Assembly: GCF_001028665.1 (NCBI RefSeq)
Contig: NZ_CP011503.1
Coordinates: forward strand, 3,472,001-3,536,000
From: Burkholderia pyrrocinia
Lineage (GTDB): Bacteria > Pseudomonadota > Gammaproteobacteria > Burkholderiales > Burkholderiaceae
DNA: 64,000 bases
Reading direction: 5' to 3'
In this document: in pieces, positions 45,613 through 64,000 of the stretch
Layout: each line of letters opens with the position of its first letter
Position numbering within the stretch: position 1 is the first letter of the stretch
Translations under genes and position numbers: made by a program
Notes under the pieces: generated by a model
Databases searched by the model: none
Told to the model about the DNA's origin: nothing
What the model saw: only the letters and a program-made list of their open reading frames with translations

Positions 45613-45674
45613 GATGTTTCCTTGTTTCAGTGATGCGATCGGGCCGCTGCGGCGCAGCAGGCCGTAATGCGGTG

Positions 45675-47146: not shown

Positions 47147-47294
47147 GGTTCGAAGTACGGCGAAAGTTCGCTGAAATAATGGGTTCGCATCGACCGCGCG
47201 GGTGCCGCAGGCCGGCCGCGCGGGCCGATGCGATGACGGCCCAGTGTAGCGAAAACGTCCATACGCGCCCATACAGCGGCGCAGATAGTGCATG

Positions 47295-48086: not shown

Positions 48087-48096
48087 CGCATGCTCC

Positions 48097-49581
48097 TCAC
48101 GCCTTCGCGCTCACGAGCAGCCGGTAGAACACGAAGCCAAGCCCCGCGCCGATGAACCACGAGAAGTTCGCGACGCCCTGCCAGCCCGGCACCATCACGC
48201 AAACGACCGCGATCACCGCGGCCGGCAGCAGCGCGGCGAGCGCACGACGATTCACGCCGCCCGTGTACCAGTACGTGCCGCTCTCCGACATCGTGTACAG
48301 GTCGTCGCGCACGAGCCGGCCGCGCTTGACGAGGTAGAAGTCGGCGATCAGCACGCCGTACAACGGGCCGATGAATGCACCGAGCACGTCGAGCGTGTAG
48401 TGGATCACGGCCGGGTTGTTGAACAGGTTCCACGGCGTGATGAAGATCGACGCGACGGCCGCGAGCATCCCGCCCGCGCGCCAGCTGATCAGCCGCGGCG
48501 CGACGTTCGAGAAGTCGAACGCAGGCGACACGAAGTTCGCGACGATGTTGATGCCGATCGTCGCGATCGTGAACGTCAGCGCGCCGAGGATCACCGCGGT
48601 CGGATGGTCGATGCGGCCGACCGTCTCGACCGGATCGGTGATGAGTTCGCCGAACACGGGCAAGGTCGCTGCCGTCGTGATCACCGTGACGAGCGAGAAC
48701 GCGAGGAAGTTGACGGGCAGCCCCCAGAAATTGCCGCGCTTCACGTCGCCGAACGAGCGGCAGTAGCGCGAGAAATCGCCGAAGTTCAGCATCGGCCCGG
48801 AGAAGTACGACACGACCAGCGACACGGCCGTGATCATCACCGGGATCACTTCCGCGCCGTGATACTTGACGCCGCCGAGGTTGAGGCCGATGTTGCGCCA
48901 GCCCGCGCGCCACACCATGTAGCCGGCGAGGATGAACATCACGACATAGACGGCCGGGCCCGCGAAGTCGATGAACTTCTTGATCGTCTCCATCCCGTTC
49001 CAGAACACGAACGCCTGCAGCACCCACAGCAGCATGAACCCGGCCCAGCCGACCGCCGACAGCCCGAGGAAGCCGTAGCGGTGGACGTCCGCGTACGGCA
49101 GCCATTGCGGGAAGAACTTCAGCACGACGATCACGAGCGCGCTCGACGCGAGATAGGTCTGGATGCCGTACCACGCGATCGCGATCAGCCCGCGGATCAC
49201 GGCCGGCACGTTCGCGCCGAGCACGCCGAACGTCGCGCGGCACGCGACCGGATACGGTACGCCGATCTGCTGGCTCGGCCGCGCGATCAGGTTGCACAGC
49301 AGGTTCACGATGCCGATCCCGACGATCAGCGCGATCAGCACCTGCCAGCTCGTCAGCCCGAGCGCGAACAGGCTGCCCGCGAATACGTAGCCGCCGACGC
49401 TGTGCACGTCCGACATCCAGAATGCGAAGATGTTGTACGAGCCCCATGTCTGATTCTTCAGGGGTGCCAAATCTTCGTTATACAGACGTTCGCTGTAACC
49501 GCCCGGCAGCGTCGGGTCGCCGCCCTCGCCGCCTTCTTCCGCCGGATAGGCGCTGTCGTGCGCCACACTGAACTGAGCCAT
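48097..49581 (-). CDS. NCS1-family transporter, probable allantoin permease
   Basis: 494 residues from ATG 49581 (MAQFSVAHDSAYPAEE). About twelve membrane segments; the NCS1 signature region is YNEDLAPLKNQTWGSYNIFAFWMSDVHSVGGYVFAGSLF, and RATFGVLGANVPAVIRGLIAIAWYGIQTYLAS follows. Members carry allantoin, uracil, hydantoin or cytosine with a cation. The adjacent racemase and allantoinase point to allantoin. It lies 149 bases after the GntR regulator and 10 bases before the racemase. Confidence 0.9.
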   Translation of the reverse strand: MAQFSVAHDSAYPAEEGGEGGDPTLPGGYSERLYNEDLAPLKNQTWGSYNIFAFWMSDVHSVGGYVFAGSLFALGLTSWQVLIALIVGIGIVNLLCNLIARPSQQIGVPYPVACRATFGVLGANVPAVIRGLIAIAWYGIQTYLASSALVIVVLKFFPQWLPYADVHRYGFLGLSAVGWAGFMLLWVLQAFVFWNGMETIKKFIDFAGPAVYVVMFILAGYMVWRAGWRNIGLNLGGVKYHGAEVIPVMITAVSLVVSYFSGPMLNFGDFSRYCRSFGDVKRGNFWGLPVNFLAFSLVTVITTAATLPVFGELITDPVETVGRIDHPTAVILGALTFTIATIGINIVANFVSPAFDFSNVAPRLISWRAGGMLAAVASIFITPWNLFNNPAVIHYTLDVLGAFIGPLYGVLIADFYLVKRGRLVRDDLYTMSESGTYWYTGGVNRRALAALLPAAVIAVVCVMVPGWQGVANFSWFIGAGLGFVFYRLLVSAKA

Positions 49582-49730
49582 GACTTCTCCTTGACGCGGC
49601 CGGGTGGCCGCTCCACCGTCATCGATATCGCTCCGGATCGTCGCCCGGAGTCGGACCAGCGGCCCGCGGCGAACGCCGCAGGCCTGCATTGCTCTCGTTC
49701 TGTGGCGCGCGGCCGGGTTCGCGTCGCCGC

Positions 49731-50435
49731 TCAGGCGCCGCCGAACACTTCGCGCAAATCGACCTGCCCTTGCGCGGGCCGGTCCAGCATCTTCAGTTCG
49801 ACATGCTGCAGGTGGTGCGCCATCAGCGTCACCGCCCGCTTCGGATCGCCCGCCTCCAGCGCGGCGAGGATCTCGTCGTGGTCGTCACACGAACACGGGC
49901 TGCGGCCGTGTGATTCGTACAGCGCCGACATCAGCGTCGAGCGTGCGACGAGCCCTTCGAGGCACTCGCTGAGCGTCGCATTGCCCATCAGCGTGGCGAG
50001 CGCCGTATGGAATTCGCCCGACAGGCGGATCCATGCCGCGAAGTCGTGCCGCTCGAACGCCTTGCGTTCCTTGTCGATCAGCGCGGCGACGCCCTTCAGC
50101 CGCTTCGCGCCGGGCCCGGCCGCGAGCCGCTCGACCACGGCGAGCTCGATGATCCGGCGCATCTCGAACACCTCGTGCACGTCCTGCAGCGTCGGGCTCG
50201 CGACGAACGCACCGCGGTTCGGTTCGAGTTCGACCAGCTTGTCGGTCGCGAGCTGCGCGAGCGCCTGGCGAATCGTCCCGCGCTTCACGCCGAACACGTC
50301 GCAGAGCTGCGCCTCCGTCAGCTTCGCGCCGGGCGCGAGCCGATGCTCGAGGATCGCCGTGCGGATCCGCTCGGCGATCGCTTCGGGACTGGCTGCACCG
50401 GACGGGTGGGAATCGGCCTCGTTCATGATCTGCAT
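49731..50435 (-). CDS. GntR-family regulator, FCD subfamily
   Basis: 234 residues. The N-terminal winged HTH is AIAERIRTAILEHRLAPGAKLTEAQLCDVFGVKRGTIRQALAQLATDKLVELEPNRGAFV; the all-helical FCD effector domain is VHEVFEMRRIIELAVVERL to HHLQHVELKML, with His residues for metal binding (SGEFHTAL, HHLQH). It heads the minus-strand allantoin run and probably represses it until a purine-derived ligand binds. An alternative start is MNEADS three codons later. Its promoter region holds operator-like sequences. Confidence 0.9.
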   Translation of the reverse strand: MQIMNEADSHPSGAASPEAIAERIRTAILEHRLAPGAKLTEAQLCDVFGVKRGTIRQALAQLATDKLVELEPNRGAFVASPTLQDVHEVFEMRRIIELAVVERLAAGPGAKRLKGVAALIDKERKAFERHDFAAWIRLSGEFHTALATLMGNATLSECLEGLVARSTLMSALYESHGRSPCSCDDHDEILAALEAGDPKRAVTLMAHHLQHVELKMLDRPAQGQVDLREVFGGA

Positions 50436-50449
50436 CGTGTGATGGTCCT

Positions 50450-50461
50450 CATCCTAGGATG
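50450..50461. promoter_or_regulatory. 12-bp palindrome CATCCTAGGATG upstream of gntR
   Basis: A perfect palindrome covering the candidate -10 of the gntR promoter. It could be an operator; a palindrome of this length is not common by chance in an intergenic region. Confidence 0.4.
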
Positions 50462-50478
50462 GACATAAAGATTGTCAA
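50451..50478 (-). promoter_or_regulatory. Candidate promoter of the gntR/allantoin operon
   Basis: Minus strand: TTGACA (50473-50478) with a 16-base spacer and TAGGAT (50451-50456). The -35 is an exact match and overlaps the GntR-type site at 50472-50481. The transcript start would be very close to the start codon. Confidence 0.4.
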
Positions 50479-50481
50479 CAA
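50472..50481. promoter_or_regulatory. GntR/FCD-type operator TTGTCAACAA, site 1
   Basis: TTGT-CA-ACAA is an inverted repeat with the short spacer expected for FCD-type GntR proteins. It overlaps the -35 of the gntR promoter, so binding would block transcription. Confidence 0.5.
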
Positions 50482-50614
50482 TTCTTTTCCGGAATTTCGC
50501 ACAATCGGCGTGCACGGGCGCGACCACAATCGGTGCAGGATGCGCGAAATCCATGCACACCAAGCCTATAAGCCATGACAGAGGCCGTCCTCGCCGTATA
50601 CCCTTTCGGACATT

Positions 50615-50624
50615 TTGTTGACAA
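50615..50624. promoter_or_regulatory. GntR/FCD-type operator TTGTTGACAA, site 2
   Basis: The same 10-base site on the other strand, 143 bases further upstream and flanked by AT-rich sequence. Two sites could allow looping between dimers. Confidence 0.45.
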
Positions 50625-50703
50625 TACTGGTGCAAAACCCGGTGACGATTCTGTCGGTGCCCGCCGAAATTTTTGACCGTTAGTTGCACAATTACATAAA
50701 GAA

Positions 50704-50724
50704 AAAGGCGGGAACCCCGCCTTT
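50704..50724 (-). terminator. Terminator after the LD-carboxypeptidase gene
   Basis: The 9-bp stem AAAGGCGGG (50704-50712) with CCCGCCTTT (50716-50724) and a 3-base loop has a T-rich tail on the minus strand. It lies 18 bases after the gene. Confidence 0.8.
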
Positions 50725-50742
50725 CGATCAACCGTGTCAGCT

Positions 50743-51681
50743 TCAGCCGAGGTGCGGATAGTCCGACAGCGTAAGCCGGAAACCGTGCGCATTCGCGACC
50801 AGCTGCGCGTGCGCGCCGAACGGCAGCGTCAGCAGGTCGGGCACGTGGCCGAACTGCAGCCCCGTGACGACCGGAATGCCGACCACCTCGCGCACCTGGT
50901 CGATCATCGCCTGCATGTCGTAGCCGTTGTCGTATTCGAACGGCCGCGCGCCGGTGAACTGTCCGAGCACGAGCGCCTGCTGGCGCGCGAGCAACCCCGA
51001 CAGGTGCAGTTGATAGATCATCCGCTCGATCCGGAACGGCTGTTCGTTGACGTCCTCGATGAACAGGATGCCGCCCTCGATGTCGGGCATGAACGGCGTG
51101 CCGATGAGCGACGTGAGGATCGCAAGGTTGCCGCCCCACAAGGTGCCCGTCACGTTCACGGTCTGCACCTGCGGCGCCTCGGCGATGATCGTCGTGCTCG
51201 ACTGCGTCAGCGTCTGCCAGAAGTGCTGCATCGTGAAATCGCTCGGCGTTTCCGCGCCGAAATCGGCGGACAGCATCGGGCCGCCGAACGTCTTGATGCG
51301 CGCCTTCGCGTACAGCGCGAGCTGGATCGCCGTGAAGTCGCTGTGGCCGACGAGCGCAACCGGCTGGTCGCGCAGCCTGCGCTCGAGCCCGCGATAGTCG
51401 AGCCCGTGCAGGATCCGCGCGGCACCGTAGCCGCCGCGCACCGCAAGCGCGATGTCCGGCAGCGGCCGCTCGGGATCGGCGAGACGGTTCAGGTCGCCTG
51501 CCCGCTCGCCGTCGGTGCCGCCGAAACGCTGGAAGCGCCGCTGCGTCGCTTCGATGTTCTCGATGCGTTGCTGCGCGGTGCTGAGGCGTTCGAGCGCGCG
51601 ATTGATCGCGTCGGGATCGTGCGGATAACCGGACGGCGCCAGCAGGCGAATGGTGTAGGACGCGGCGGGCTGAAAGGACAT
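50743..51681 (-). CDS. ldcA: Murein tetrapeptide LD-carboxypeptidase (S66 peptidase)
   Basis: 312 residues: VRGGYGAARILHGLDYRGLERRL followed by ALVGHSDFTAIQLALYAK with the nucleophile Ser114 (GHSD), then GTLWGGNLAILTSLIGTPFMPDIEGGILFIEDVNEQPFRIERMIYQL with the Glu-His relay region. S66 peptidases remove the terminal D-Ala from recycled murein tetrapeptides in the cytoplasm. No signal peptide is present, as expected. It lies 99 bases from tadA. Confidence 0.93.
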   Translation of the reverse strand: MSFQPAASYTIRLLAPSGYPHDPDAINRALERLSTAQQRIENIEATQRRFQRFGGTDGERAGDLNRLADPERPLPDIALAVRGGYGAARILHGLDYRGLERRLRDQPVALVGHSDFTAIQLALYAKARIKTFGGPMLSADFGAETPSDFTMQHFWQTLTQSSTTIIAEAPQVQTVNVTGTLWGGNLAILTSLIGTPFMPDIEGGILFIEDVNEQPFRIERMIYQLHLSGLLARQQALVLGQFTGARPFEYDNGYDMQAMIDQVREVVGIPVVTGLQFGHVPDLLTLPFGAHAQLVANAHGFRLTLSDYPHLG

Positions 51682-51780
51682 GGCGAAAGGTGTCGGGTCG
51701 TCAAACCTGCTTAGAGGGTCCGAACCGTCTTCGGTTCAGGGAACCGTGCGCGCCCGGAGCGACAGGCACGGCCGGCGCGA

Positions 51781-52775
<995 letters not shown>

Positions 52776-53054
52776 CAGTCAATTGGAACAATGCGGCAGG
52801 CCGAATTCTAGCAGGGTGACGCGGGTATGACAGGCCCTTCGAATATATGCTCGATATTGTGTTTTTTAGGGGCCGAATCGCGGCGCATACGTGCCGATCG
52901 GCGCCACTTGCCGCTCTGCTGCGCCGCAGCAGGCGGAGCGCCTTCCGGACACCGGCAAATACAAGCGGTGTCGGGCCCTGTTTTTATCTGCGATGACACA
53001 GGACGGGTGTCGCGAATCCGGTGAAACGGCAGGCGTCGATGTGCCGTTGCCGGA

Positions 53055-54266
53055 TCACGCGGCTAACGTTTCCGGCCGCGCTTTCGCAAACGGGCGGAAC
53101 ATCATCGCGATCAGAAACGCGCCGAGACCGATCGCGAACGAACCGATGTACAGCCGGCCGTAGCTGCCGAACGTATCGACGATCAGGCCGCCGGCAACCG
53201 GCCCCGCGGCCATCCCGAGGCTGCCGGCCATCGCGCAGCCGCCGATCACGGTGCCCATCATCCGCAGCGGGAAGTTCTCGCGCGCGAGCACCGAATACAG
53301 CGGCATCACGCCCGCATAGATGAAGCCGAACAGCGTCGCGACCGCGTAGAACCCGTCGAGCGTGCGCACGAAGTAGTAGCCGAGCGCGCCCAGCGCCTGC
53401 GCGAGCAGCCCGGCCACCAGCATCCGCTTCGCGCCGACGCGGTCGCCGAGGAGGCCGAACACGATCCGGCCGCCCATGCCCGCGAGCCCTTCGACGCTGT
53501 AGATCGACACCGCGACGATCAGCGGGATCCCGCACGTCACCGCGTAGCTGACCGTATGGAAGATCGGGCCCGAGTGGGTCGCGCAGCAGAAGAAATTGGT
53601 CAGCACCAGCACCATGAACTGCGGCGAGCGCAGCGCGTCCGCGACCGACATCGCCGCGGGCGCGCCGGCAGGCTGAGGCGCCGCGTGCGCGCGGTCGAGC
53701 GCGGGCGCCCTGCGCACCAGCAGCGACACCGGGATCATCACGACGGCCGCCAGTGCGGCGACGAGCAGCATCGACGTGCGCCAGTCATGCGTCGATACGA
53801 GCCACGCGGCCAGCGGCGACATCGTCATCGGCGCCATCCCCATGCCGGCCGACACGAGCGACACCGCCAGGCTGCGGTGCGTGTCGAACCAGCCCGTCAC
53901 GCACGCCATCATCGGCGCGAACACCGCGGCCGTCGCGCTGCCGACGGCAAGGCCGAAGGTCAGCTGGAACGCGAGCAGCGACGGCGCGCGGCTCGCCAGC
54001 GCGAGGCTCGCCGACAGCAGCACGGCGCCCGTCATGACGACCGCGCGCGCACCGATGCGGTCCGACAGGCTGCCCCACCCCATGCTCGCGAAGGCCATCG
54101 CGATGAAGCCGAGCGTCATCGCGCCGGAAATGCCGGTCATCGACCAGCCCGTGTCGCGCGCAATCGCGCGCAGGAACACCGGCAGCGAAAACATCGCGCC
54201 GATCGCGAGGCAGCCCATCAGGCCGCCCGCGGCGACGATCACCCAGCGGTATCGGGAATCCGGCAT
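53055..54266 (-). CDS. MFS transporter, divergent from the AprAB-like operon
   Basis: 403 residues from ATG 54266 (MPDSRYRWVIVAAGGLMGCLA) with AGGAGA upstream. Twelve hydrophobic segments; loop 2-3 SMGWGSLSDRIGARAVVMTG and the later GGRIVFGLLGDRVGAKRML are MFS motifs. Resembles the monocarboxylate/oxalate-formate branch. Divergent by 367 bases from the GntR-UTRA operon and so a candidate importer for its substrate. Ligand unknown. Confidence 0.85.
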   Translation of the reverse strand: MPDSRYRWVIVAAGGLMGCLAIGAMFSLPVFLRAIARDTGWSMTGISGAMTLGFIAMAFASMGWGSLSDRIGARAVVMTGAVLLSASLALASRAPSLLAFQLTFGLAVGSATAAVFAPMMACVTGWFDTHRSLAVSLVSAGMGMAPMTMSPLAAWLVSTHDWRTSMLLVAALAAVVMIPVSLLVRRAPALDRAHAAPQPAGAPAAMSVADALRSPQFMVLVLTNFFCCATHSGPIFHTVSYAVTCGIPLIVAVSIYSVEGLAGMGGRIVFGLLGDRVGAKRMLVAGLLAQALGALGYYFVRTLDGFYAVATLFGFIYAGVMPLYSVLARENFPLRMMGTVIGGCAMAGSLGMAAGPVAGGLIVDTFGSYGRLYIGSFAIGLGAFLIAMMFRPFAKARPETLAA

Positions 54267-54633
54267 TTGGCGTCTCCTGTCTCGTTTCGGCAATCCTCGG
54301 GAACCGCGCTACTGCGGCGCCGCACGGCGGCCTGCCCGGCTGCCGCATCAACGCTGTCGCAAGCCTGGTCGACATGGATACGACGGGCGACGCATCGGGA
54401 AATCGACATGCGCGCCGCACGCGCCGGCGAATTTTTTTGATTGTCGGCCAATCCGCGCGACTGGCAAGGAGCGGATCGTTCGAACACCGGACGCCGGACG
54501 CCGGATCGCCCGTTCTGCCCACTGCCTGCCTCCCCGCTTTTCCGGATTCGGAAAGTCGAAATCAGAAATGGTTGGTTTGGACACCCGATCGAGCCGGCTA
54601 CACTCGAACCATCTTGTCATAACAAGTTGACCG
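54267..54633. other. Divergent region between the MFS gene and the GntR-UTRA operon
   Basis: 367 bases with no supported gene. The end next to the GntR gene is less GC-rich (about 54540-54630) and carries the perfect inverted repeat CTTGT-cata-ACAAG at 54613-54626. AGGAGA near 54275 serves the MFS gene. A promoter is likely around 54570-54600, but no clear hexamer pair was found. Confidence 0.45.
54613..54626. promoter_or_regulatory. Candidate operator of the GntR-UTRA regulator
   Basis: CTTGT and ACAAG form a perfect inverted repeat with a 4-base spacer, ending 7 bases before the ATG of the regulator. Position and form suggest autoregulation of the whole operon. Confidence 0.5.
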
Positions 54634-55404
54634 ATGACCCCACCCAACGTCGTGCCGCTGTCGGCGGCCCCGCTCTACGTGCAGATCAAGGACACGCTGC
54701 GCGTGCGCATCCTCGACGGCACTTATGCGCCGCACAGCCGGATGCCGTCCGAGCACGAACTCTGCGCGATGTTCGACGTCAGCCGCATCACGGTGCGCCA
54801 GGCGCTCGGCGACCTGCAGAAGGAAGGCCTGCTGTTCAAGCTGCACGGCAAGGGCACGTTCGTGTCGAAGCCGAAGGCGTTCCAGAACGTGACGTCGCTG
54901 CAGGGGTTCGCCGAGGCGATGTCGACGATGGGCTACGAGATCGTCAACCAGTTGCGCAGCTTTCGCACCGTGAAGGCCGACCGCCATCTCGCGACGAAGC
55001 TGAACGTGCCGGAAGGCGCGCCGCTCGTCGAGATCCACCGCGTGCGGCTGCTGAACCGCGAGCCCGTGTCGCTCGAACAGACCTGGGTGCCCGAAGCGCT
55101 CGGCAAGCGCCTCGCGGGCGCCGATCTCGCGACCCGCGACATCTTCCTGATCCTCGAAAACGACTGCGGCATCCCGCTCGGTCATGCCGACGTGTCGATC
55201 GACGCGATCCTCGCCGACGACGAGATCGTCGATGCGCTGCACGTCGAGGAAAGCAGCCCCGTGCTGCGTATCGAGCGCCTCACGCACGACGCGTCGGGCA
55301 CGCCGATCGACTACGAATACCTCTACTTCCGCGGCGACGCCTTCCAGTACCGGTTGCGCATCGACCGGCAGAAGGCGCGCAAACCTGCAAGGAACTCGCG
55401 ATGA
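54634..55404 (+). CDS. GntR-family regulator, HutC/UTRA subfamily
   Basis: 256 residues. Winged HTH in PLYVQIKDTLRVRILDGTYAPHSRMPSEHELCAMFDVSRITVRQALGDLQKEGLLFKLHGKGTFV; a UTRA ligand domain follows (FAEAMSTMGYEIVNQLRSFRTVKADRHLATKLNVPEGAPLVEIHRVRLLNREPVSLEQTWVPEAL). The first gene of the operon; its stop overlaps the ATG of the flavoprotein gene (ATGA), so it is translationally coupled. UTRA domains bind small molecules, often degradation intermediates, so its ligand may identify the pathway. Confidence 0.92.
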   Translation: MTPPNVVPLSAAPLYVQIKDTLRVRILDGTYAPHSRMPSEHELCAMFDVSRITVRQALGDLQKEGLLFKLHGKGTFVSKPKAFQNVTSLQGFAEAMSTMGYEIVNQLRSFRTVKADRHLATKLNVPEGAPLVEIHRVRLLNREPVSLEQTWVPEALGKRLAGADLATRDIFLILENDCGIPLGHADVSIDAILADDEIVDALHVEESSPVLRIERLTHDASGTPIDYEYLYFRGDAFQYRLRIDRQKARKPARNSR

Positions 55405-57140
55405 ATACCCATGTGCACGAATACGACGTCGTCGTGGTCGGCGGCGGCACGGCCGGCCCGATGGCGGCGATCAAGGCGAAGGAACGCGACCCGTCCCTGC
55501 GCGTGCTGCTGCTCGAAAAAGCCCACGTGAAGCGCAGCGGCGCGATCTCGATGGGGATGGACGGGCTGAACAACGCGGTGATCCCCGGGCATGCGACGCC
55601 CGAGCAATACACGCGCGAGATCACGATCGCCAACGACGGCATCGTCGACCAGGAAGCCGTGCACGCGTATGCGACGCACAGCTTCGCGACGATCGAACAG
55701 CTCGACCGCTGGGGCGTGAAGTTCGAGAAGGACGGCACCGGCGACTACGCGGTGAAGAAGGTCCATCACATGGGCTCGTACGTGCTGCCGATGCCGGAAG
55801 GACACGACATCAAGAAAGTGCTGTACCGGCAACTGAAGCGCGCGCGCATCGCGATCACGAACCGGATCGTCGCGACGCGCGTGCTGACCGATGCGCACGG
55901 ACGTGCGAGCGGCGTGCTCGGCTTCGACTGCCGCACCGCGGCGTTCCACGTGATCCGCGCGAAGGCCGTGATTCTCTGCTGCGGCGCCGCAGGCCGGCTC
56001 GGGCTGCCGGCGTCGGGCTACCTGATGGGCACGTACGAGAACCCGACCAACGCAGGCGACGGCTATGCGATGGCCTATCACGCCGGCGCCGCGCTTGCGA
56101 ATCTCGAATGCTTCCAGATCAATCCGCTGATCAAGGACTACAACGGCCCCGCATGCGCGTACGTGACGGGCCCGCTCGGCGGCTTCACCGCGAACGGCAA
56201 GGGCGAGCGCTTCATCGAATGCGATTACTGGAGCGGCCAGATGATGTGGGAGTTCTACCAGGAACTGCAAAGCGGCAACGGCCCCGTGTTCCTGAAGCTC
56301 GACCATCTCGCGGAAGAAACGATCCGGACCATCGAGCAGATCCTGCACACGAACGAGCGGCCGAGCCGCGGCCGTTTCCATGCGGGGCGCGGGACCGACT
56401 ACCGACACCAGATGGTCGAGATGCACATCTCCGAGATCGGCTTCTGCAGCGGCCACAGCGCGTCGGGCGTGTACGTGAACGCCCGCGCGGAAACGACCGT
56501 GCAGGGACTCTACGCAGCCGGCGACATGGCGGCCGTCCCGCACAACTACATGCTCGGCGCGTTCACGTATGGCTGGTTCGCCGGACAGAACGCGGCCGAC
56601 TACGTGGCCGGCCGCGACCATGCACCGGTGGACGACGAACAGGTCGACGCCGAGCGCGCCCGCGTGCTCGCCCCGCTGTTTCGCGAGCGCGGCCTGGCGC
56701 CGGCGCAGGTCGAATACAAGCTGCGCCGCCTGGTGAACGACTACCTGCAACCGCCGAAGGTGACCCGCAAGATGGAAATCGGACTGCAACGTTTCGACGA
56801 TATTACGGAGGATATCGAAGAGATAAAGGCGAGCCATCCTCACGAACTGATGCGCGCGGCTGAAGTTCGAGCGATCCGCGACTGCGCCGAAATGGCCGCC
56901 CGCGCGTCGCTGTTTCGCACCGAGAGCCGCTGGGGGCTGTATCACCATCGCGTCGACTTTCCGCACCGCAACGACGCCGAATGGTTTTGTCACACCTGGC
57001 TGCGCAAGGATGCCGACGGCGCGATGCGCAGCGAGAAGCGGCCGGTCGAACCGTACATCGTGCCGCTTGCCGACGACGAACGCAGCGCCTACGCGCATCT
57101 GCGCATCCGCGAACCGGCCGCACTCTCGGCCGCCCTTTGA
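55401..57140 (+). CDS. AprA-like FAD flavoprotein (fumarate reductase/APS reductase superfamily)
   Basis: 579 residues. FAD motif YDVVVVGGGTAGPMAA (GGGTAG at 14-19), LLEKAHVKRSGAISMGMDGLNNAV as the isoalloxazine-contact region, and C-terminal GLYAAGDMAAVPHNYMLGAFTYGWFAGQNAADYV. Partner is an AprB-like ferredoxin. The catalytic Arg motif of succinate/fumarate enzymes (TEGCRGEGG) is missing; that site reads TGPLGGFTANGKGERFI, so the substrate is not succinate. True APS reductase is 600-650 residues and works with sat and Qmo, which are absent. Cytoplasmic two-subunit oxidoreductase of unknown substrate. Confidence 0.85.
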   Translation: MNTHVHEYDVVVVGGGTAGPMAAIKAKERDPSLRVLLLEKAHVKRSGAISMGMDGLNNAVIPGHATPEQYTREITIANDGIVDQEAVHAYATHSFATIEQLDRWGVKFEKDGTGDYAVKKVHHMGSYVLPMPEGHDIKKVLYRQLKRARIAITNRIVATRVLTDAHGRASGVLGFDCRTAAFHVIRAKAVILCCGAAGRLGLPASGYLMGTYENPTNAGDGYAMAYHAGAALANLECFQINPLIKDYNGPACAYVTGPLGGFTANGKGERFIECDYWSGQMMWEFYQELQSGNGPVFLKLDHLAEETIRTIEQILHTNERPSRGRFHAGRGTDYRHQMVEMHISEIGFCSGHSASGVYVNARAETTVQGLYAAGDMAAVPHNYMLGAFTYGWFAGQNAADYVAGRDHAPVDDEQVDAERARVLAPLFRERGLAPAQVEYKLRRLVNDYLQPPKVTRKMEIGLQRFDDITEDIEEIKASHPHELMRAAEVRAIRDCAEMAARASLFRTESRWGLYHHRVDFPHRNDAEWFCHTWLRKDADGAMRSEKRPVEPYIVPLADDERSAYAHLRIREPAALSAAL

Positions 57141-57151
57141 GGAGCCTTACC

Positions 57152-57397
57152 GTGCCCCATACCCCGCACGACATCTTCCAGCGCAGCAGCGCGCCCGTCA
57201 CGATCGACGAGGCACTGTGCATCGCCGACAAGGGCTGCACCGTCTGCGTCGACGTGTGCCCGCTCGACCTGCTCGCGATCGACGTGACCAAGGGCAAGGC
57301 CTACATGCAGTTCGACGAATGCTGGTACTGCATGCCGTGCGAACGCGATTGCCCGACCGGTGCGGTCAAGGTCGACATCCCTTACCTGCTGCGCTGA
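57152..57397 (+). CDS. AprB-like 2x[4Fe-4S] ferredoxin
   Basis: 81 residues from a GTG with GAGGAG upstream. Eight Cys: 23, 29, 32, 36 in CIADKGCTVCVDVC and 57, 60, 63, 67 in CWYCMPCERDC. The C-x5-C-x2-C-x3-C and C-x2-C-x2-C-x3-C spacing, together with CPLDLLAID, CWYCMPC and CPTGAVKVDIPYLL, matches the AprB ferredoxin domain. It lacks the long C-terminal AprB tail that wraps AprA. It would carry electrons to or from the flavoprotein encoded 11 bases upstream. Confidence 0.92.
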   Translation: MPHTPHDIFQRSSAPVTIDEALCIADKGCTVCVDVCPLDLLAIDVTKGKAYMQFDECWYCMPCERDCPTGAVKVDIPYLLR

Positions 57398-57555
57398 CCG
57401 GGCGCGCGGCCGATCTTCGTCGTGCCGCCCGCGCTGGCCGTGCATCGACGACGTGACGGCCGGTCGGCGCTCGCCAGGTTCGCGCCGCCATACCGCGCCG
57501 CCGATGCACCGCGTTCCGTGAGCAGCCGCCCTTTCATCGAACCGACCTTTTGCCC

Positions 57556-58557
57556 ATGACCGCTTTCTCTTCCACCTCCTCGCTGCCCGGCACGCACGAT
57601 CCGGATCTTGCCGCACTCGTCGCCCGCCTCGCTGCGCCCGATGCATCCGTGCGCCGTATTGCACTGCTCGAACTCGCCGATCTCGAGGAATCCGATCTCG
57701 TGCCCGCGTTCGTCGCGGCGCTGCGCGACGACCCGTCGGCCGACGTGCGCAGCGAGGCGGCCCGCGTCCTCGGCGAATGGGAACAGCCCGACGTCGTCGA
57801 CGCGCTGTGCGGCGCGCTGCTCGACCCGGACGACGGCGTGCGCGCCACTGCCGCGCAGAGCCTGTCCGAACTGAAGGACGCGGCATCGGGTACCGTGCTG
57901 TGCAGCTGGGCCGACCGGCCCGAGCCGTTCGTGCGCAGTGCCGTGCTGCGCGGGCTGCGCGAGTTGCGCGTCCCCGATGCGTTCGCGCCTGCACTGCATG
58001 CACTCGACGCCGACACCCCGGCCGTGCGCACCGAGGCGGCAGCCGTGCTCGGCTGGCTCAAGGATTCGCGCGCGCTGCCGCTACTCGCACGCATCGCAAC
58101 GGCCGACGCCGATGCGGACGTGCGCCGTATTGCGGTCGGTGCGATCGGGTTCGCGACACCCGGCGACACGACCGTCGTCACCGCATTGCTCGTGGCACTG
58201 CGCGACGCAGCATGGCAGGTCCGCGAGGAAGCGGCCGCAACACTCGGCAAGCTGCGCGTTGCGGACGCGCGCGCACCGCTCGTTGCCGCGCTCGACGACG
58301 ATTACTGGCAAGTGCGCTTGCGTGCCGTGCGCGCGCTCGGGCAGCTGCGCGATGCTACCGCGGCGCAGGCCGTCGTCGCGCTGCTCTCGCATGCGATCAG
58401 CAATCTGCGCAAGGAAGCCGCGCTTGCGCTCGGCGAATTGCGCGACCGCTCGACACTTCCCGCGCTGCACGACGCACTGGAGGATCGCGACCCCGAGGTG
58501 CGCAAGGCGGTGCGGATCGCGATCGGACAGATCGGGCTACTCGGGGAGAGGCAATGA
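57556..58557 (+). CDS. HEAT-repeat protein
   Basis: 333 residues of about nine HEAT-like repeats of 30 residues each, most with a D-x-VR/ADVRxEAA pattern (DASVRRIALLELADLEE, ADVRSEAARVLGEWEQ, AAVLGWLKDSRALPLLARIA, WQVREEAAATLGKL, WQVRLRAVRALGQL, LRKEAALALGELRD, PEVRKAVRIAIGQIG). Repeats of this type form a curved scaffold, as in phycobilisome lyases and PBS-lyase proteins. Its stop overlaps the DUF971 start (ATGA). Probably a chaperone or assembly scaffold for the redox pair, by inference from linkage. Confidence 0.9.
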   Translation: MTAFSSTSSLPGTHDPDLAALVARLAAPDASVRRIALLELADLEESDLVPAFVAALRDDPSADVRSEAARVLGEWEQPDVVDALCGALLDPDDGVRATAAQSLSELKDAASGTVLCSWADRPEPFVRSAVLRGLRELRVPDAFAPALHALDADTPAVRTEAAAVLGWLKDSRALPLLARIATADADADVRRIAVGAIGFATPGDTTVVTALLVALRDAAWQVREEAAATLGKLRVADARAPLVAALDDDYWQVRLRAVRALGQLRDATAAQAVVALLSHAISNLRKEAALALGELRDRSTLPALHDALEDRDPEVRKAVRIAIGQIGLLGERQ

Positions 58558-58895
58558 CGCCGCCGACCGAGATCGCGCTCGATTACGCGGCCCGTGCATT
58601 GACGCTGCGCTGGCCGGGCGGCGACATGCAGTGCATCGGTTACGCACGATTGCGCAGCGACTGCCCGTGTGCCGCATGCCGAAAGATCCGACTCGACGGA
58701 CACGTTGTCGACGCGATGCCGAACCTGACGCTGGACGGCTTGGAACCGGCCGGTTACGGCATCCGCCTGCTGTTCGGCGACGGTCATGCGCGCGGCATCT
58801 ATCCGTGGCCGTATCTGATGGAACTCGGCAAGCGCGAGACGGATGCGGACATCGCGGCGCATTGCATCTGCACATCTGGTGATCTCGCAGGCTGA
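58554..58895 (+). CDS. DUF971 (GBBH-like N-terminal) zinc-binding protein
   Basis: 113 residues: TEIALDYAARALTLRWPGGDMQCIGYARLRSDCPCAAC with Cys37, Cys39 and Cys42, and His78 in FGDGHARGIYPWPYL. This is the C-x-C-x2-C plus His zinc site of the gamma-butyrobetaine-hydroxylase-like N-terminal domain. Such domains also occur fused to Fe-S assembly ATPases, which suggests a role with the neighbouring Fe-S protein. Unusual extra C-terminal CIC. Last gene of the operon. Confidence 0.9.
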   Translation: MTPPTEIALDYAARALTLRWPGGDMQCIGYARLRSDCPCAACRKIRLDGHVVDAMPNLTLDGLEPAGYGIRLLFGDGHARGIYPWPYLMELGKRETDADIAAHCICTSGDLAG

Positions 58896-58934
58896 CCGTC
58901 GACGGGCCACCGTTGCATCGGGCACACCGCACCT

Positions 58935-59270
58935 CGATGCGCGCCGCCGACGTGTGCCCGAGAACGCCGCGATACCGCCGAAGAGACGACCGTCGACGTC
59001 GAAGCGCTGGACGCCTTTACCGCACTGGATGCCTTCGATTACGATGCCGACGGCGGCGTGCGCCAGCATTTCATCATGGTCGCGGTGCTGTGCAGACGGT
59101 TGCGCGGCACGCCCGCCGCCGGCGACGACGCGCTCGACGCGCGCTGGTTCGGCCTCGCCGAACTCGATCGCGACGACTTGCCGATGAGTGCGGGTGTCCG
59201 CGACGTCGCGCGACGGGCGATCGAACGGGCCGCGGGCCTTGGCAATGCGCAGCGTCCATCAACTACTTGA
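58935..59270 (+). pseudogene. Remnant of a Nudix hydrolase (N-terminus and first half of Nudix box missing)
   Basis: In frame with the DUF971 stop codon, the reading CARERRDTAEETT then VDVEALDAFTALDAFDYDAD and GGVRQHFIMVAVLC is the second half of a Nudix box followed by a Nudix C-terminus (DARWFGLAELDRDDLPMSAGV). No ATG or GTG precedes the Nudix box and the leading GG-x-E-x-G-E part is gone. The first start in frame (GTG 59058) falls after the box. The box itself is damaged (T for the final G). It is a decayed gene rather than a short one. Confidence 0.7.
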
Positions 59271-59367
59271 AACATCACCGTCGTTCCCGTGTCCGGTGCG
59301 GGCGGCCCGATCGGGGCCATGACGGTGTCGGCTACCCGCCGATCTCCGAACCACAACACGTCAAACC

Positions 59368-59832
59368 ATGATCAGAATTCGCAAGTCCACCGAGGCCGAC
59401 GGCACACGCGTGCTGGACATCTGGCGCGGCGCGGTCGATGCAACGCACCACTTCCTGAGCGACGACGACCGTCGCGCAATCGAAACCGAAGTCGTGGCGT
59501 TTCTGCCCGGCGCGCCGCTCGATCTCGCTGTCGATGATGACGACCGCGCGATCGGCTTCATGCTGCTCGACGGCAGTCACATGGAAGCGCTGTTCGTCGA
59601 TCCCGCTCACCATGGCGCGGACGTCGGGCGGCTGCTTGTGGAAGAAGCGATCAGGCGCCATCCCGACCTGTCGACCGACGTCAACGAGCAGAACGAAGCG
59701 GCGGCGGGATTCTATGAACGGCTCGGATTCGAGCGTTGCGGGCGATCGGCGCTCGATGGACAAGGGCGGGCATATCCGTTGATTCACCTGCGCTATCGCG
59801 CGGCACGGCCGTTCTCACCGGAACGCGCGTAA
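59368..59832 (+). CDS. GNAT-family N-acetyltransferase (YjaB-like)
   Basis: 154 residues: MIRIRKSTEADGTRVLDIWRGAVDATHHFLS, then IGFMLLDGSHMEALFVDPAHHGADVGRLLVEEAI as motif A (acetyl-CoA pyrophosphate loop) and DVNEQNEAAAGFYERLGFERCGRSALDGQGRAYPLIHL. This matches E. coli YjaB closely over the whole length. The acetyl-CoA loop reads HHGADVGRLL where Q/R-x-x-G-x-G/A is usual (compare YjaB RGCGVGRVL). Substrate unknown. Confidence 0.9.
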   Translation: MIRIRKSTEADGTRVLDIWRGAVDATHHFLSDDDRRAIETEVVAFLPGAPLDLAVDDDDRAIGFMLLDGSHMEALFVDPAHHGADVGRLLVEEAIRRHPDLSTDVNEQNEAAAGFYERLGFERCGRSALDGQGRAYPLIHLRYRAARPFSPERA

Positions 59833-59972
59833 CCTCGGCTCGAGCGATATCGGGCTGCCGTTCACGCCGCACGCATATCGACACTCGAACGCGGCCGGTT
59901 GATGCCGAATCCGCTCAACGCACGCGGCACGCGTCACGCGCACCGACGAGCAGCCGCGTCGCGTGTGACGCG

Positions 59973-60527
59973 TCATGCGCGACGCATCGGCAGCACGCGT
60001 TCGGCGATCGCGAAGGCGCTTTGCATGAAACCGTTGAACCGGTCGGCATCGCGCCGCAGCCCGGCCTGTTGTCCGCCGATCAGGCACAAATGCACGGCCT
60101 GCCCGACGATCTCGGCCTCGCCCGACGTGCGCACCAGCCGGCGCGACGTGTCGATTGCAAACGCGAGCCGCGTCGCGTCGACGCGCTGCTGGAATTCCGC
60201 GACCAGCGGATCGTGCAATGCCCATGCGCGAATCGCGATTTCACGCCCCGACCGTTTCTCGGCGGCAATGCGCAGATAGCGCGCCAACGTGTCGCCAGCA
60301 CCGTGGCCGTCCGCCGCATACGTGAGCATGCGCGTCGTGTAGTCGTCCTCCCACGCGCTCAGCAACGTCCGGACGAAGTCTTCGCGATTGCGGAAGTGGT
60401 GATAGAACGAACCGCGCGTCACGTTCAGCCGCCGCGCGAGATTCTCGGCCGAGATGCCCGCGTACCCTTCTCCATCGAGGGCATCGAAGCCCGCTGCAAT
60501 CCAGTCGTTTCGCGTCAGTGTGCTCAT
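59973..60527 (-). CDS. TetR-family transcriptional regulator
   Basis: 184 residues from ATG 60527 (MSTLTRNDWIAAGFDALDGEGYAGIS). HTH in SAENLARRLNVTRGSFYHHFRNREDFVRTLL, the TetR signature. An ATG four codons earlier (60539) falls inside a perfect operator palindrome, so the inner start is preferred. It is divergent from the DJ-1/PfpI gene, which it most likely represses along with itself. Confidence 0.9.
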   Translation of the reverse strand: MSTLTRNDWIAAGFDALDGEGYAGISAENLARRLNVTRGSFYHHFRNREDFVRTLLSAWEDDYTTRMLTYAADGHGAGDTLARYLRIAAEKRSGREIAIRAWALHDPLVAEFQQRVDATRLAFAIDTSRRLVRTSGEAEIVGQAVHLCLIGGQQAGLRRDADRFNGFMQSAFAIAERVLPMRRA

Positions 60528-60535
60528 CGTCATCG

Positions 60536-60554
60536 CCATACAGGCTGTGTATGG
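60536..60554. promoter_or_regulatory. TetR-type operator, 7-bp inverted repeat
   Basis: CCATACA (60536-60542), a 5-base spacer and TGTATGG (60548-60554) form a perfect inverted repeat right at the tetR start, in the 84-96 bp gap to the divergent DJ-1/PfpI gene. This is the size and placement of a TetR-family site. Confidence 0.65.
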
Positions 60555-60623
60555 TGCGGCATGGACAGATAGGCTGCGAACTCTATCACGGCCGCCGCCG
60601 CTTCCGGCAGCGTGCCACTACGC

Positions 60624-61289
60624 ATGGAGTCCGCCTTGAAAGACATCGCGCTCGTCGCATTCGACCGGTTCACCGACATCGACCTGTTCCTGATGTGGGA
60701 CATTCTCGGCCGCAACAACAGGGACTGGCGCGTCCGGATTCTGGGCGCGCAGTCGGCGCTGCATTCCGCACATGGCCTGGCCATCCCGACGCACGGCCCG
60801 CTCGCCGACGCCAGTCGCGCCGACGCGGTCCTGTTTTCGAGCGGCAAGGAAGGCGTACCGGCCGCGCTCGCCCATCCTGATTTCCTGCCATCGTTCGATC
60901 TCGATCCCGAACGCCAGCTTGTCGGATCGATCTGCGCCGGCGCCTTCATTCTCGAACGGCTCGGGCTGCTGCCCCAGCGCCGCGCCACGACGCATCCCGA
61001 AGCGCGGAAGGGATTGCAGGCACTCGAGTTGCAAGTGATGGACCAGCCGCTGGTGTGCCACGGCAACGTCGCGACCGCGGGGGGATGCCTTGCGTCGCTC
61101 TATCTGACGGGGTGGCTGGTGGAATCGCTGTTCGATGCGGACAAGCGGCGCGAGACGTTGCTGCCCGTGCTGCCTGCCGGGCAACGAGAGATTTACGACG
61201 ATCTGATCGAGTTCAGCATCAGGCAGGCTGCGGGACAAACCACGGGCCCGATCCGGATGGTTGAAGGCGAAAACGGGCTGGCGGCGTGA
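60624..61289 (+). CDS. DJ-1/PfpI family protein (class I amidotransferase-like fold)
   Basis: 221 residues from ATG 60624 (MESALKDIALVAFDRFTDID); a GTG at 60612 is an alternative. The nucleophile elbow is LVGSICAGAFILERLG with Cys104, and the His-containing loop is ATTHPEARKGLQ. No HTH domain follows, unlike AraC-fused GlxA. Members include isonitrile hydratase (InhA) and stress proteins; the text GWLVESLFDADKRRETLLPVLP fits the isonitrile hydratase-like branch. Divergent from the TetR gene. Confidence 0.85.
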   Translation: MESALKDIALVAFDRFTDIDLFLMWDILGRNNRDWRVRILGAQSALHSAHGLAIPTHGPLADASRADAVLFSSGKEGVPAALAHPDFLPSFDLDPERQLVGSICAGAFILERLGLLPQRRATTHPEARKGLQALELQVMDQPLVCHGNVATAGGCLASLYLTGWLVESLFDADKRRETLLPVLPAGQREIYDDLIEFSIRQAAGQTTGPIRMVEGENGLAA

Positions 61290-61523
61290 CCCACGGATCG
61301 ATGGGCTGCCGATAGTCGGCGACCAGCACCCTGTTGCATCGTCGTGCGTACTGCCGAGCCAACGGCGAATCGGAACAAATTCGCGGTCGATCCGGACCAT
61401 CGATCGGGTCGGCGTGTGCCGCACGGATGGTCGTTTCCCGGGCTGAACCAGCCTGTCGCGGGCCTGGAGATGCTAACCTCTCGGCCACTCTAACGACACC
61501 GCGTGAAGCAACAGGATTCGACC

Positions 61524-62141
61524 ATGCAAACCGTTGCGGTACTGGACTTCGAAACAACCGGACTTTCGCCGAACCTGGGCGACCGTGCGACCGAAATCGC
61601 CGTCATCCTCCTCCGCGACGGACAAGTCGTCGACCGCTTCCAGAGTCTGATGAATGCAGGCAGACGCATACCGTCGGATGTCGTCGCGCTGACCGGCATC
61701 ACGAACGAGATGATCGCATCGGCTCCCCCGGCGTCGAAAGTCATGAAGGACGCCGCGGCGTTCGTCGGCAAGCACGCGGTCGTCGCCCACAATGCCGGCT
61801 TCGACAAACGGTTCTGGCAGGCAGAACTCGGGCTTCTCGGCATGTCGGCCGAGCATGCCTTTGCCTGCACGATGCTCGTGGCACGACGCATTTACCCGGA
61901 CGCGCTGAGTCATCGCCTGTCGAGCCTCGCAGACATGCTGCGGTTGCCGAAATCGGGACGTGCGCACCGGGCGATGGTCGATGCCGAGATGGCCAGCCAT
62001 CTGTGGTGCCGGCTGCAGCAGGACATCGCGCGGACGTACGGACTGAATCGTATCGATCACGCGCTCATGACACGTGTGCAGGCCACGGCGAAGGCGAAAG
62101 TGCCGACGTACCTGCGTTCGCTCGTGGGCTCGCACGCGTGA
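61524..62141 (+). CDS. DEDDh 3'-5' exonuclease (DnaQ epsilon-like)
   Basis: 205 residues from ATG 61524 with AGGA. Exonuclease motif I VLDFETTGLSP (Asp8, Glu10), motif II VVAHNAGFDKRFW, motif III HRAMVDAEM, the full DEDDh set. Small free-standing DnaQ-like protein without a polymerase or BRCT partner. Its role is probably repair, RNA processing or small nucleic-acid turnover. Confidence 0.88.
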   Translation: MQTVAVLDFETTGLSPNLGDRATEIAVILLRDGQVVDRFQSLMNAGRRIPSDVVALTGITNEMIASAPPASKVMKDAAAFVGKHAVVAHNAGFDKRFWQAELGLLGMSAEHAFACTMLVARRIYPDALSHRLSSLADMLRLPKSGRAHRAMVDAEMASHLWCRLQQDIARTYGLNRIDHALMTRVQATAKAKVPTYLRSLVGSHA

Positions 62142-62184
62142 GAATTCGAGGCGCGATGGCGCTGACTTGCGCAATCCGTTAACG

Positions 62185-62219
62185 AAAAGCGGCTTGGCAA
62201 TCTGCCAGGCCGTTTTCTT
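62185..62219. terminator. Imperfect hairpin after the exonuclease gene
   Basis: AAAAGCGGCTTGGCA pairs imperfectly with TGCCAGGCCGTTTT. It lies between the exonuclease gene and the convergent gene at 62324, so it can end both. Confidence 0.6.
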
Positions 62220-62323
62220 GTCGCAACAGTCTTCCGGTTGATTCCGAACACAAGGCAACGGCGGGACGGCCATTTTGCGGCCGCCCACGACGCTGGCCGA
62301 CCGAGCGGCGACTTGTTTTCGTA

Positions 62324-62617
62324 CTATGCAAGACCGATAAGGAGCACTTTGAGCGTACCTCCGTGGCTGAGGTCTCCCAGATAGGCCACGACCTTCTGCT
62401 TCTGTCCAAGCGCTGTGAGCGCGTTTCCAATCTGGATCAGCAACGCCGTGTTCGAGGCATCCACTGCAAACGAATTCCCCCCCTCGTTATTGAGCATGAA
62501 AGGAAGGGTATCGTTCTTGTCCCAATAACCCAGCTGGATTGACTCAACCTCTACGCGCTTCAAACCGTCCGCCTGCTCCGCGAACTTCTGAAGTTCGCTG
62601 AAATTTTCGTTCGACAT
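62324..62617 (-). CDS. Unrecognised small protein in a less GC-rich patch
   Basis: 97 residues from ATG 62617 with GGAGA (GCAGGAGAAATTGAC then ATG): SNENFSELQKFAEQADGLKR, then SIQLGYWDKNDTLPFMLNNEGG, NTALLIQIGNALTALGQKQKVVAYLGDLSHGG. Soluble, alpha/beta in appearance. Lys- and Asn-rich and less GC-biased than its neighbours. The good ribosome site and the compact sequence make it a real gene, but I recognise no family. Its base use suggests horizontal origin. It lies 0.55 kb from the 3' end of guaA. Confidence 0.6.
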   Translation of the reverse strand: MSNENFSELQKFAEQADGLKRVEVESIQLGYWDKNDTLPFMLNNEGGNSFAVDASNTALLIQIGNALTALGQKQKVVAYLGDLSHGGTLKVLLIGLA

Positions 62618-63166
62618 GTCAATTTCTCCTGCAGTGAGTTGAAAAAAGCCGAAAACCAGGGTCATATAGTCCGAATCTGGCTTGCGCGAGTCACGCATCG
62701 ACAACGTTCATCACCATCTCCGCGGTGGCTTGGGTCAGCCATCCGCGAAGAGCCCTGCCGGGACGAAATTAGGTTGAGCACGCAAAGCAATCAATTACAC
62801 TCGATTACAGTCGCGGCGAAATGGGGGGTAGCAGCACGTCGCTTACCGACTGCTCCATCAAGCGGTCTCGCTATGCACGCGGACGCTGTTTCAAACCCGC
62901 ACCTTTTGCGCTGCAACTGATTGCCGGTACCGATTGGGTACGGCATGGTGCAGTCGATGAGCGGAGCGGAGCCGCTGGTTGAACGAGAGCGAAAATAAAG
63001 GCATCCGCGACGCGTCATTGCACACGAATGTCCCCGGTGTGTTCCAGTCGGCGAAACACGAAATCCGCGCGACGCGCCAGTCGGGCCAAAAAACAAAAAA
63101 GCCCGCTGTGAAGCGGGCTTAGATGTGTTCTGCTGCAAGGTCGTCCGGTACGTGCCGGACGTCCAA
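62618..63166. other. Gene-poor region between the small gene and guaA
   Basis: 549 bases, less GC-rich than average between about 62640 and 63000. It holds the guaA terminator at its end. A 53-codon ATG frame at 62821 on the plus strand and a longer minus-strand frame were considered and not accepted. No tRNA, integrase or direct repeat was recognised by eye. Confidence 0.45.
63094..63120 (-). terminator. Terminator after guaA
   Basis: The 9-bp stem AAGCCCGCT (63099-63107) with AGCGGGCTT (63112-63120) and a 4-base loop is followed on the minus strand by a T tract. Confidence 0.9.

Positions 63167-64000
<834 letters not shown>

Follow-up and report, generated by a model that had tools for sequence, protein, structure and literature searches.

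What is the task of an operon that couples a flavoprotein and a two-cluster ferredoxin to a HEAT-repeat protein, a DUF971 protein and a regulator of its own? The question is raised by a 64,000-nucleotide stretch of the Burkholderia pyrrocinia genome (contig NZ_CP011503.1, positions 3,472,001 to 3,536,000), hereafter the window, in which five genes follow one another on the + strand. They encode a GntR-UTRA transcriptional regulator (54634–55404; PF00392, PF07702), a flavoprotein that is probably the catalytic subunit (55401–57140), an eight-cysteine, two-[4Fe-4S] ferredoxin resembling AprB (57152–57397; GTG start; Fer4_7/4Fe-4S dicluster), a HEAT-repeat protein (57556–58557; PF13646, HEAT_2) and a DUF971 (GBBH-like_N) protein (58554–58895; PF06155). 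All five reading frames are open and complete, and the closest named proteins, at 94–97% identity, come from Burkholderia. A preliminary description of this DNA had recognized the five same-strand genes, the two pairs overlapping by ATGA (GntR/flavoprotein and HEAT/DUF971) and the intact cysteine patterns; the open reading frames (ORFs), the Pfam matches and the ferredoxin sequence, with its eight cysteines for two clusters, bear this out. We slightly favor the view that the whole is a soluble α-β oxidoreductase of the clade of adenosine 5′-phosphosulfate (APS) and 3′-phosphoadenosine 5′-phosphosulfate (PAPS) reductases, scavenging sulfur from an imported organosulfur oxoanion.

The module is conserved, widespread across several phyla and uncharacterized, and it is a real operon. 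A scan of species genomes gave at least 587 stretches encoding a relative of the flavoprotein. The best 80 of these, a sample that leans toward close relatives (Pseudomonas, Burkholderiaceae, Acinetobacter and a small number of others), were combined with the window, 15 hand-picked wider stretches from Pseudomonadota (13 from the 21 carrier genomes of a Pseudomonadota scan and two from a Burkholderiaceae scan) and 12 loci from a plasmid collection into a set of 108. Among the nearest loci the ferredoxin is found in 80/80, a GntR gene upstream of the flavoprotein in 79, the HEAT protein in 78 (the remaining two, L045 and L057, run off their contigs) and DUF971 in 66. The flavoprotein, ferredoxin, HEAT and DUF971 proteins occur together in all 15 wider stretches, with ATP-binding cassette (ABC) genes nearby in 14, an FNR-type reductase in 11 and FdxA in six (the names FNR and FdxA were checked in L163 and are annotated in L009). 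Each of the 12 plasmid-collection loci has the ferredoxin and the HEAT protein, the latter fused to the flavoprotein in two, while DUF971 is present in four and an Mrp-type protein in three. A profile search of the whole fetched stretches finds DUF971 in 86/108 loci; the 22 without it include three that reach contig ends (L045, L057 and L106), three cyanobacterial and two actinobacterial loci, L008, L011 and a set from Caballeronia, Ralstonia, Cupriavidus and further Betaproteobacteria. The HEAT and DUF971 proteins thus travel with the redox pair in other genomes, a point on which the preliminary description had staked its case. Its statement that no described pathway with the exact set was known to it also holds among open-licence PMC papers, where our search returned no description of this five-gene set.

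The spread of the module is patchy. A relative of the flavoprotein is encoded in 21/398 Pseudomonadota genomes (E 1e-100). With the threshold at E 1e-40, 147/398 Burkholderiaceae genomes have a match, which in a few cases is a fragment; in the window's own genus a match occurs in 42 of the 61 genomes listed. In the plasmid collection, 53 of 117 matching records reach at least 60% identity. The matches listed for 60 Cupriavidus genomes divide into members, with at least 74% identity, and other flavoproteins, with no more than 34%, and a scan of viral contigs returned no relative.

Two of these loci have arrangements of their own. L163 (G606:C55) is a second copy in one genome, 76% identical, with all parts in one run in the order GntR, FNR, flavoprotein, ferredoxin, HEAT, FdxA, ABC, DUF971. 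In Nostoc (L005:13707-16888), two HAD hydrolases, a methyltransferase, a GNAT protein and a FosA-like VOC protein lie between flavoprotein and ferredoxin.

To which family does the flavoprotein belong? With 1146.5 bits against a cut-off of 587 it is a full member of NCBIfam PRK08275 (NF006131), and it carries the Pfam domains FAD_binding_2 and Succ_DH_flav_C. The label "fumarate reductase" attached to PRK08275 and PRK13800 is misleading, and a fumarate reductase or succinate dehydrogenase (Frd/Sdh) function is unsupported. The window protein scores 167 bits on the sdhA_frdA model, below the cut-off of 567.3, and lacks both the HPTG and the HG.NRLG substrate motifs of fumarate/succinate enzymes, which the genome's own SdhA has; membership of the Sdh/Frd enzymes was rejected on these grounds, and the preliminary description was right that the succinate-type catalytic motif is absent. 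When a nine-row family profile (A1) was compared with solved structures, the α subunit of the Methanothermococcus PAPS reductase (8a8o_A) was the best match at 278.5 bits, with AprA at 202.9 and SdhA at 135.2 bits. On the curated aprA model TIGR02061, the window flavoprotein reaches 176.6 bits, below the cut-off of 641.75; on PRK06854 (adenylyl-sulfate reductase subunit alpha) it reaches 284.1 bits, below the cut-off of 557 that an Ilyobacter relative of the PAPS reductase passes with 843.6. At E 1e-40, the window genome (7.96 Mb, four contigs) gives no aprA match. The earlier term "AprA-like" is therefore apt for nearest kinship, as the structure-profile match indicates, and not for membership, which the curated scores and the residues described below speak against.

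A tree of 24 family rows and five AprA/PAPS reductase rows, with SdhA, NadB, an Frd-like protein and AsfA, places family and AprA/PAPS reductase rows on one side against the other four (support 95/99). The flavoprotein is thereby separated from Sdh/Frd, and the order within its own side is unsure: in the best tree the AprA/PAPS reductase rows nest inside the family, beside three cyanobacterial rows, and family monophyly appears in 3% of 200 bootstrap trees, yet an enforced family clade is not rejected (p-AU 0.194). AsfA, PAPS reductase, NadB, Frd and SdhA all have long branches. The structure model, with a mean pLDDT of 52 (21 rows, at least 74% identity), was too poor, and nothing here rests on it.

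How far does kinship with the APS/PAPS reductases extend into the pocket? We aligned 24 family rows with four AprA sequences and the Ilyobacter PAPS reductase relative (window numbering throughout). Asn57, His352, Glu345, Lys245 and Asp246 are invariant in 24/24 family rows, and Asn57 and His352 align with the Asn and His of AprA/PAPS reductase. The Arg present in all five AprA/PAPS reductase rows is Leu243 in every family row, and their Trp-Tyr pair is likewise replaced by Tyr212-Glu213 in 24/24. Counted on the printed alignments, the A. fulgidus equivalents of Asn57, His352 and Leu243 are Asn74, His398 and Arg265, which we take to have catalytic or sulfite-binding roles. Where the Methanothermococcus thermolithotrophicus enzyme (MtPAPSR) has Lys120-Arg121-Ser122, the family has a loop of the form HHxGxYVLPMPEG, in an alignment near 27% identity. 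Excerpts of the MtPAPSR paper propose that its loop serves the 3′-phosphate, have Trp206 and Tyr207 bind flavin adenine dinucleotide (FAD), and describe A. fulgidus Gln145 as conserved in APS reductases (PMC10322725). With Asn and His kept and the Arg, the Trp-Tyr pair and the loop changed, the scaffold is shared with APS/PAPS reductases and the pocket is not.

The flavoprotein therefore passes for neither AprA nor PAPS reductase: the first was rejected for a score under the curated aprA cut-off and differing substrate-site residues, and the second, as MtPAPSR, for a score under the PRK06854 cut-off and a PAPS loop that is not kept. For the same reasons we think it very improbable that the module amounts to a disguised APS or PAPS reductase of the assimilatory kind, even with MtPAPSR as its nearest solved relative. 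The window genome, moreover, already encodes three PAPS_reduct-domain proteins, so that sulfate assimilation is probably independent of this operon, and in those plasmid loci that carry annotation, the only loci searched for them, neither ATP sulfurylase nor APS kinase is named alongside the module.

The partners of the flavoprotein have kinships of their own. The CW motif of the ferredoxin, the Trp of ECWYC that follows the first Cys of the second cluster, is kept in 108/108 ferredoxin loci (103 by pattern, five by eye). This Trp aligns with the Trp of D. gigas AprB, and AprB and the PAPS reductase β subunit are among the matches in the Protein Data Bank (PDB); it presumably corresponds to Trp42, proposed for electron transfer in PAPS reductase. 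Against PRK13800, the HEAT protein aligns with the C-terminal region (601–894) at 75.4 bits. Because HEAT repeats match one another readily, gene order and fusion outweigh this score: flavoprotein and HEAT form a single chain in Tsukamurella (L010, 893 amino acids, 1568 bits on PRK13800) and in Nonomuraea (L145, 938 amino acids), the only two actinobacterial loci seen. PRK13800 is a flavoprotein-HEAT fusion of the same kind, and we infer that the HEAT protein serves as a scaffold or assembly factor on the flavoprotein.

In three cyanobacterial plasmids, DUF971 is not found, and an Mrp-type protein follows HEAT; it scores over the cut-off of PF10609 and under those of the ApbC and MrpORP models. 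Plant HCF101, a 4Fe-4S carrier of the Mrp family, carries a C-terminal DUF971 domain according to excerpts of two papers (PMC5890173, PMC11838916). Together, the Mrp-type protein after HEAT and the DUF971 end of HCF101 suggest that DUF971 acts as a cluster-loading helper, and by this analogy the window protein is a probable iron-sulfur (Fe-S) maturation factor. Unlike HCF101, Mrp and ApbC, however, it is DUF971 alone, without a P-loop NTPase.

Is the substrate imported, and what is it likely to be? All three genes of an SsuA-type ABC transporter (binding protein, permease and ATPase) lie between ferredoxin and HEAT in 52/78 loci. An import system in most relatives fits the earlier suggestion of a two-subunit oxidoreductase for an imported compound, which we judge supported. 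In the window, the same interval is a 158-bp gap (57398–57555) with no ABC transporter. Homology with the DNA of B. ambifaria L074, which has the ABC genes, stops at the end of the ferredoxin and resumes just before HEAT, leaving out ∼3.2 kb of L074 sequence. On an 81-row flavoprotein tree, the presence or absence of the ABC genes requires at least 12 changes and that of DUF971 three; loss from the window is the simplest reading of this pattern, short of proof. The L074 binding protein has nine matches in the window genome at 27–39% identity, the best-scoring at 30%, which indicates no close transporter copy elsewhere. A divergent gene for a major facilitator superfamily (MFS) transporter (53055–54266, − strand; PF07690), a peripheral partner, may stand in for the missing genes. 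The preliminary description had its direction right, although the gene falls just outside the interval beginning at 54267 to which it was assigned. A match to this MFS protein lies upstream in five other Burkholderia loci (L013, L072, L074, L076 and L084), and none was found upstream of the module in L073.

For the binding proteins, the best NCBIfam model is an SsuA or aliphatic-sulfonate model in five of five tested; the Nostoc protein (342 amino acids) exceeds the SsuA cut-off, and the four long ones (447–488 amino acids) remain under it. Binding proteins of the NMT1 type also include ones for nitrate and for pyrimidine precursors. A non-sulfur substrate, for instance a nitrogen or carboxylate oxidant taken up through an NMT1-type transporter, would agree with this range, with the mainly NMT1 and NMT1_2 Pfam matches of the two long binding proteins tested and with the nitrate-type annotation of the Acinetobacter protein. 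We nonetheless rate it as unlikely, given the uniform preference for SsuA-type models, the recurrence of sulfur genes near some loci and the absence of Frd/Sdh motifs. In two cyanobacterial plasmids (L146:9676-11676 and L147:7379-9415, − strand), a divergent LysR is fused to an SsuA/NMT1-like binding domain, as if the transporter ligand were sensed directly.

The operon appears to be regulated on its own account, as the preliminary description held: its GntR-UTRA regulator is confirmed, and a conserved palindrome precedes the regulator gene. The core of CTTGTYATRACAAG occurs upstream of the GntR gene in 72/85 loci against 0.63 expected from mononucleotide shuffles. Although the search pattern did not require the outer C and G, 72 of 76 matches retain the C and 72 the G; a stricter form is found in 40/80 loci against 0.84 expected. 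The 13 loci without the core are L008, L010, L012, L033–L038, L053, L069, L081 and L145. The window copy, CTTGTCATAACAAG (54613–54626, + strand), is a putative operator and the only perfect match in the genome, which fits the regulator of a single operon. With up to two mismatches allowed, the pattern has five matches in the window genome against nine for a reversed control, which is no excess. Its conservation before the regulator gene makes the palindrome the probable GntR-UTRA site. A second conserved block, GGTTGGTTT in Burkholderia and GGTATTTC in some Pseudomonas, lies ∼43 bp upstream of the operator (window 54570–54578) and is perhaps an activator site or a −35 region. A sigma-70 scan of the + strand before the GntR gene gave no promoter over threshold; by eye, TTGGAC-16-TACACT (54577–54604) is a candidate.

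Do the surroundings of the module point to sulfur? Putative sulfate exporters of the YeiH family are encoded in 8/108 loci, from four genera and two phyla (three were checked by Pfam, two by NCBIfam, under cut-off, and two are so named in records). Two cyanobacterial plasmids carry TauE/SafE genes, with a PF01925 match in L147 and no NCBIfam match in L146. Family 2A encapsulin ORFs lie near the module in 7/108 loci (L067, L073, L078, L092, L108, L110 and L112), against ∼0.3 loci expected if every 7-Mb genome has a single such operon and the stretches are 20 kb long; four of the seven were checked, and three share one arrangement. ORFs for a cysteine desulfurase cargo and a serine acetyltransferase cluster with the encapsulin in six of the seven. 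Excerpts of one study report that sulfur starvation induces this type of encapsulin in Synechococcus (PMC8049743). Pyridoxal phosphate enzymes of Cys/Met metabolism occur in 5/108 loci, among them an O-acetylhomoserine sulfhydrylase, by annotation, in L005, and LLM monooxygenase ORFs in seven. The nearby sulfite/sulfate exporters, encapsulins and ferredoxin reductases of some relatives suggest that the module serves assimilation, freeing sulfite from an organosulfur oxoanion that the cell has taken up.

Exporters could also signal the reverse direction, in which toxic sulfite is consumed by addition to an acceptor or by oxidation, and exporter families are indeed near in two cyanobacterial plasmids and six alphaproteobacterium-type stretches. 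Import-type ABC transporters and, in some loci, ferredoxin reductases are commoner partners, however, and fit the reduction of an imported compound; we consider consumption of sulfite quite improbable. A further alternative takes its cue from LLM monooxygenase ORFs, present in 7/108 loci: flavoprotein and ferredoxin might supply electrons, in the manner of AsfAB, to a separate oxygenase that cleaves the sulfonate. No LLM oxygenase was found in the other 101 loci, in a search that covered the LLM family alone among oxygenases. In addition, the flavoprotein is kin to substrate-reducing enzymes and only distantly related to the probable AsfA of Cupriavidus metallidurans CH34, and a ferredoxin reductase and FdxA are near in some loci. 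Such an electron supply is in our judgment doubtful, if worth keeping in mind.

How, then, might sulfur be released? In the scheme that we slightly favor, the substrate would be an organic sulfur oxoanion (a sulfonate, sulfate ester, sulfamate or thiosulfonate), entering through the SsuA-type ABC transporter in relatives and through the MFS protein or a general SsuABC in the window strain. NADPH would be the electron source, with a ferredoxin reductase and then FdxA supplying the two-cluster ferredoxin, which in turn would reduce FAD. In Acidithiobacillus, the gene after FdxA (L008:10574-14035) encodes a large GltD-like FAD/NAD(P) oxidoreductase, a possible alternative electron source. The N5 of reduced FAD would attack the sulfonyl sulfur, as excerpts of the PAPS reductase paper propose for that enzyme (PMC10322725); the organic part would leave, and the FAD-sulfite adduct would release sulfite to sulfite reductase or to export. 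The HEAT protein would dock on the flavoprotein, DUF971 would help to load the 4Fe-4S clusters, and the GntR-UTRA protein would repress the operon at its palindrome until a ligand appears. Read most specifically, the module would be an oxygen-independent, ferredoxin-driven flavin reductive desulfonase, cutting sulfite off organic sulfur by N5 chemistry of the APS reductase type in aerobic soil bacteria, cyanobacteria and actinobacteria, and equipped with its own transporter, repressor-operator pair, Fe-S factor and HEAT scaffold. This we put forward tentatively, with the balance somewhat against it.

Several observations weigh against sulfite release. The change of Arg to Leu and of the FAD-binding Trp-Tyr pair to Tyr-Glu means that the chemistry may differ from that of APS/PAPS reductases. 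Alkyl carbanions leave poorly, so the attack would be easier on O-, N- and S-SO3 compounds than on plain alkylsulfonates. The window itself has the empty gap where relatives carry the transporter, and the long binding proteins fall short of the SsuA cut-off. Sulfur-linked neighbors are found in a minority of loci, and positions 44001–64000 of the window, the only part that was clustered, contain none of the four sulfur-neighbor families. Finally, knock-outs of an encapsulin pair are described in excerpts of PMC8049743 as showing no growth defect under sulfur starvation.

Passages of one source name sulfate esters and sulfonates as the main forms in which soil holds organic sulfur, and ascribe the freeing of sulfur from sulfonates to a multi-component monooxygenase system (PMC4267179). 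If sulfite is indeed released reductively, the module would be a second widespread desulfurization route, now filed under the name "fumarate reductase," and both DUF971 and the HEAT protein would gain a testable job beside one enzyme.

Which described system comes closest? The preliminary description named neither AsfAB nor MtPAPSR as an analogue, and it also passed over the absent ABC genes and the sulfur-related surroundings. MtPAPSR (PDB 8A8O; PMC10322725) shares with the module a fumarate-reductase-family flavoprotein with a two-cluster ferredoxin subunit, and the Asn and His columns are kept. The window protein is, however, 27% identical to the Ilyobacter relative of MtPAPSR and differs from MtPAPSR in the residues given above, and the excerpted text on MtPAPSR mentions no HEAT protein, DUF971 or SsuA transporter (PMC10322725). 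An Ilyobacter plasmid (L149:7378-12709) encodes a PAPS-reductase-like pair together with an APS kinase and a sulfate adenylyltransferase, so that the Methanothermococcus pathway has a parallel in bacteria. Dissimilatory AprAB shares the two-subunit plan and the ferredoxin Trp, and AprA falls with the family in the tree, apart from the Sdh, NadB, Frd-like and AsfA proteins, but the window flavoprotein scores far under the aprA cut-off and its substrate-site residues are different.

The original work on the AsfRABC system of Pseudomonas putida S-313 is reportedly that of Vermeij in 1999. The system comprises a flavoprotein-type reductase, a ferredoxin, a binding protein and a LysR regulator and is needed for arylsulfonate use, as passages of PMC4267179 describe; AsfA and AsfB are also reported for C. 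metallidurans in excerpts of PMC2864759. With the module it shares a flavoprotein, a small ferredoxin, sulfonate-type uptake and a role in sulfur assimilation. AsfR is of LysR type in the same passages (PMC4267179), whereas the window and 79/80 loci have a GntR-type gene, GntR-UTRA in the window; the cyanobacterial plasmids L146 and L147 do carry a LysR-type gene. As probable CH34 AsfA (P0121), we took the flavoprotein adjoining an AprB-like ferredoxin at ∼928 kb of CHR2, beside sulfonate-type ABC genes; genome and gene layout suggest that it is Rmet_4334. Within the 400 kb examined, just two ORFs show such a Cys pattern, and its ferredoxin neighbor is the better one. Another candidate, C4:895685, was rejected as an Frd-like protein with a different Fe-S partner.

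Our first guess, that the window flavoprotein is itself AsfA, was also rejected: the probable CH34 protein is 23% identical to it over 418 positions and sides with Sdh/Frd in the tree, its branch being very long and of uncertain position. No HEAT or DUF971 protein is among the ORFs listed beside it, and the CH34 genome has no member of the window family at E ≤ 1e-12 beyond matches of 26–29% identity. Conversely, the window genome has no close relative of the probable AsfA, its one weak match having E 4.6e-6. At such distances, the Asf system and the window module look like parallel systems: AsfAB is the closest described analogue in role, and its flavoprotein belongs to a different family.

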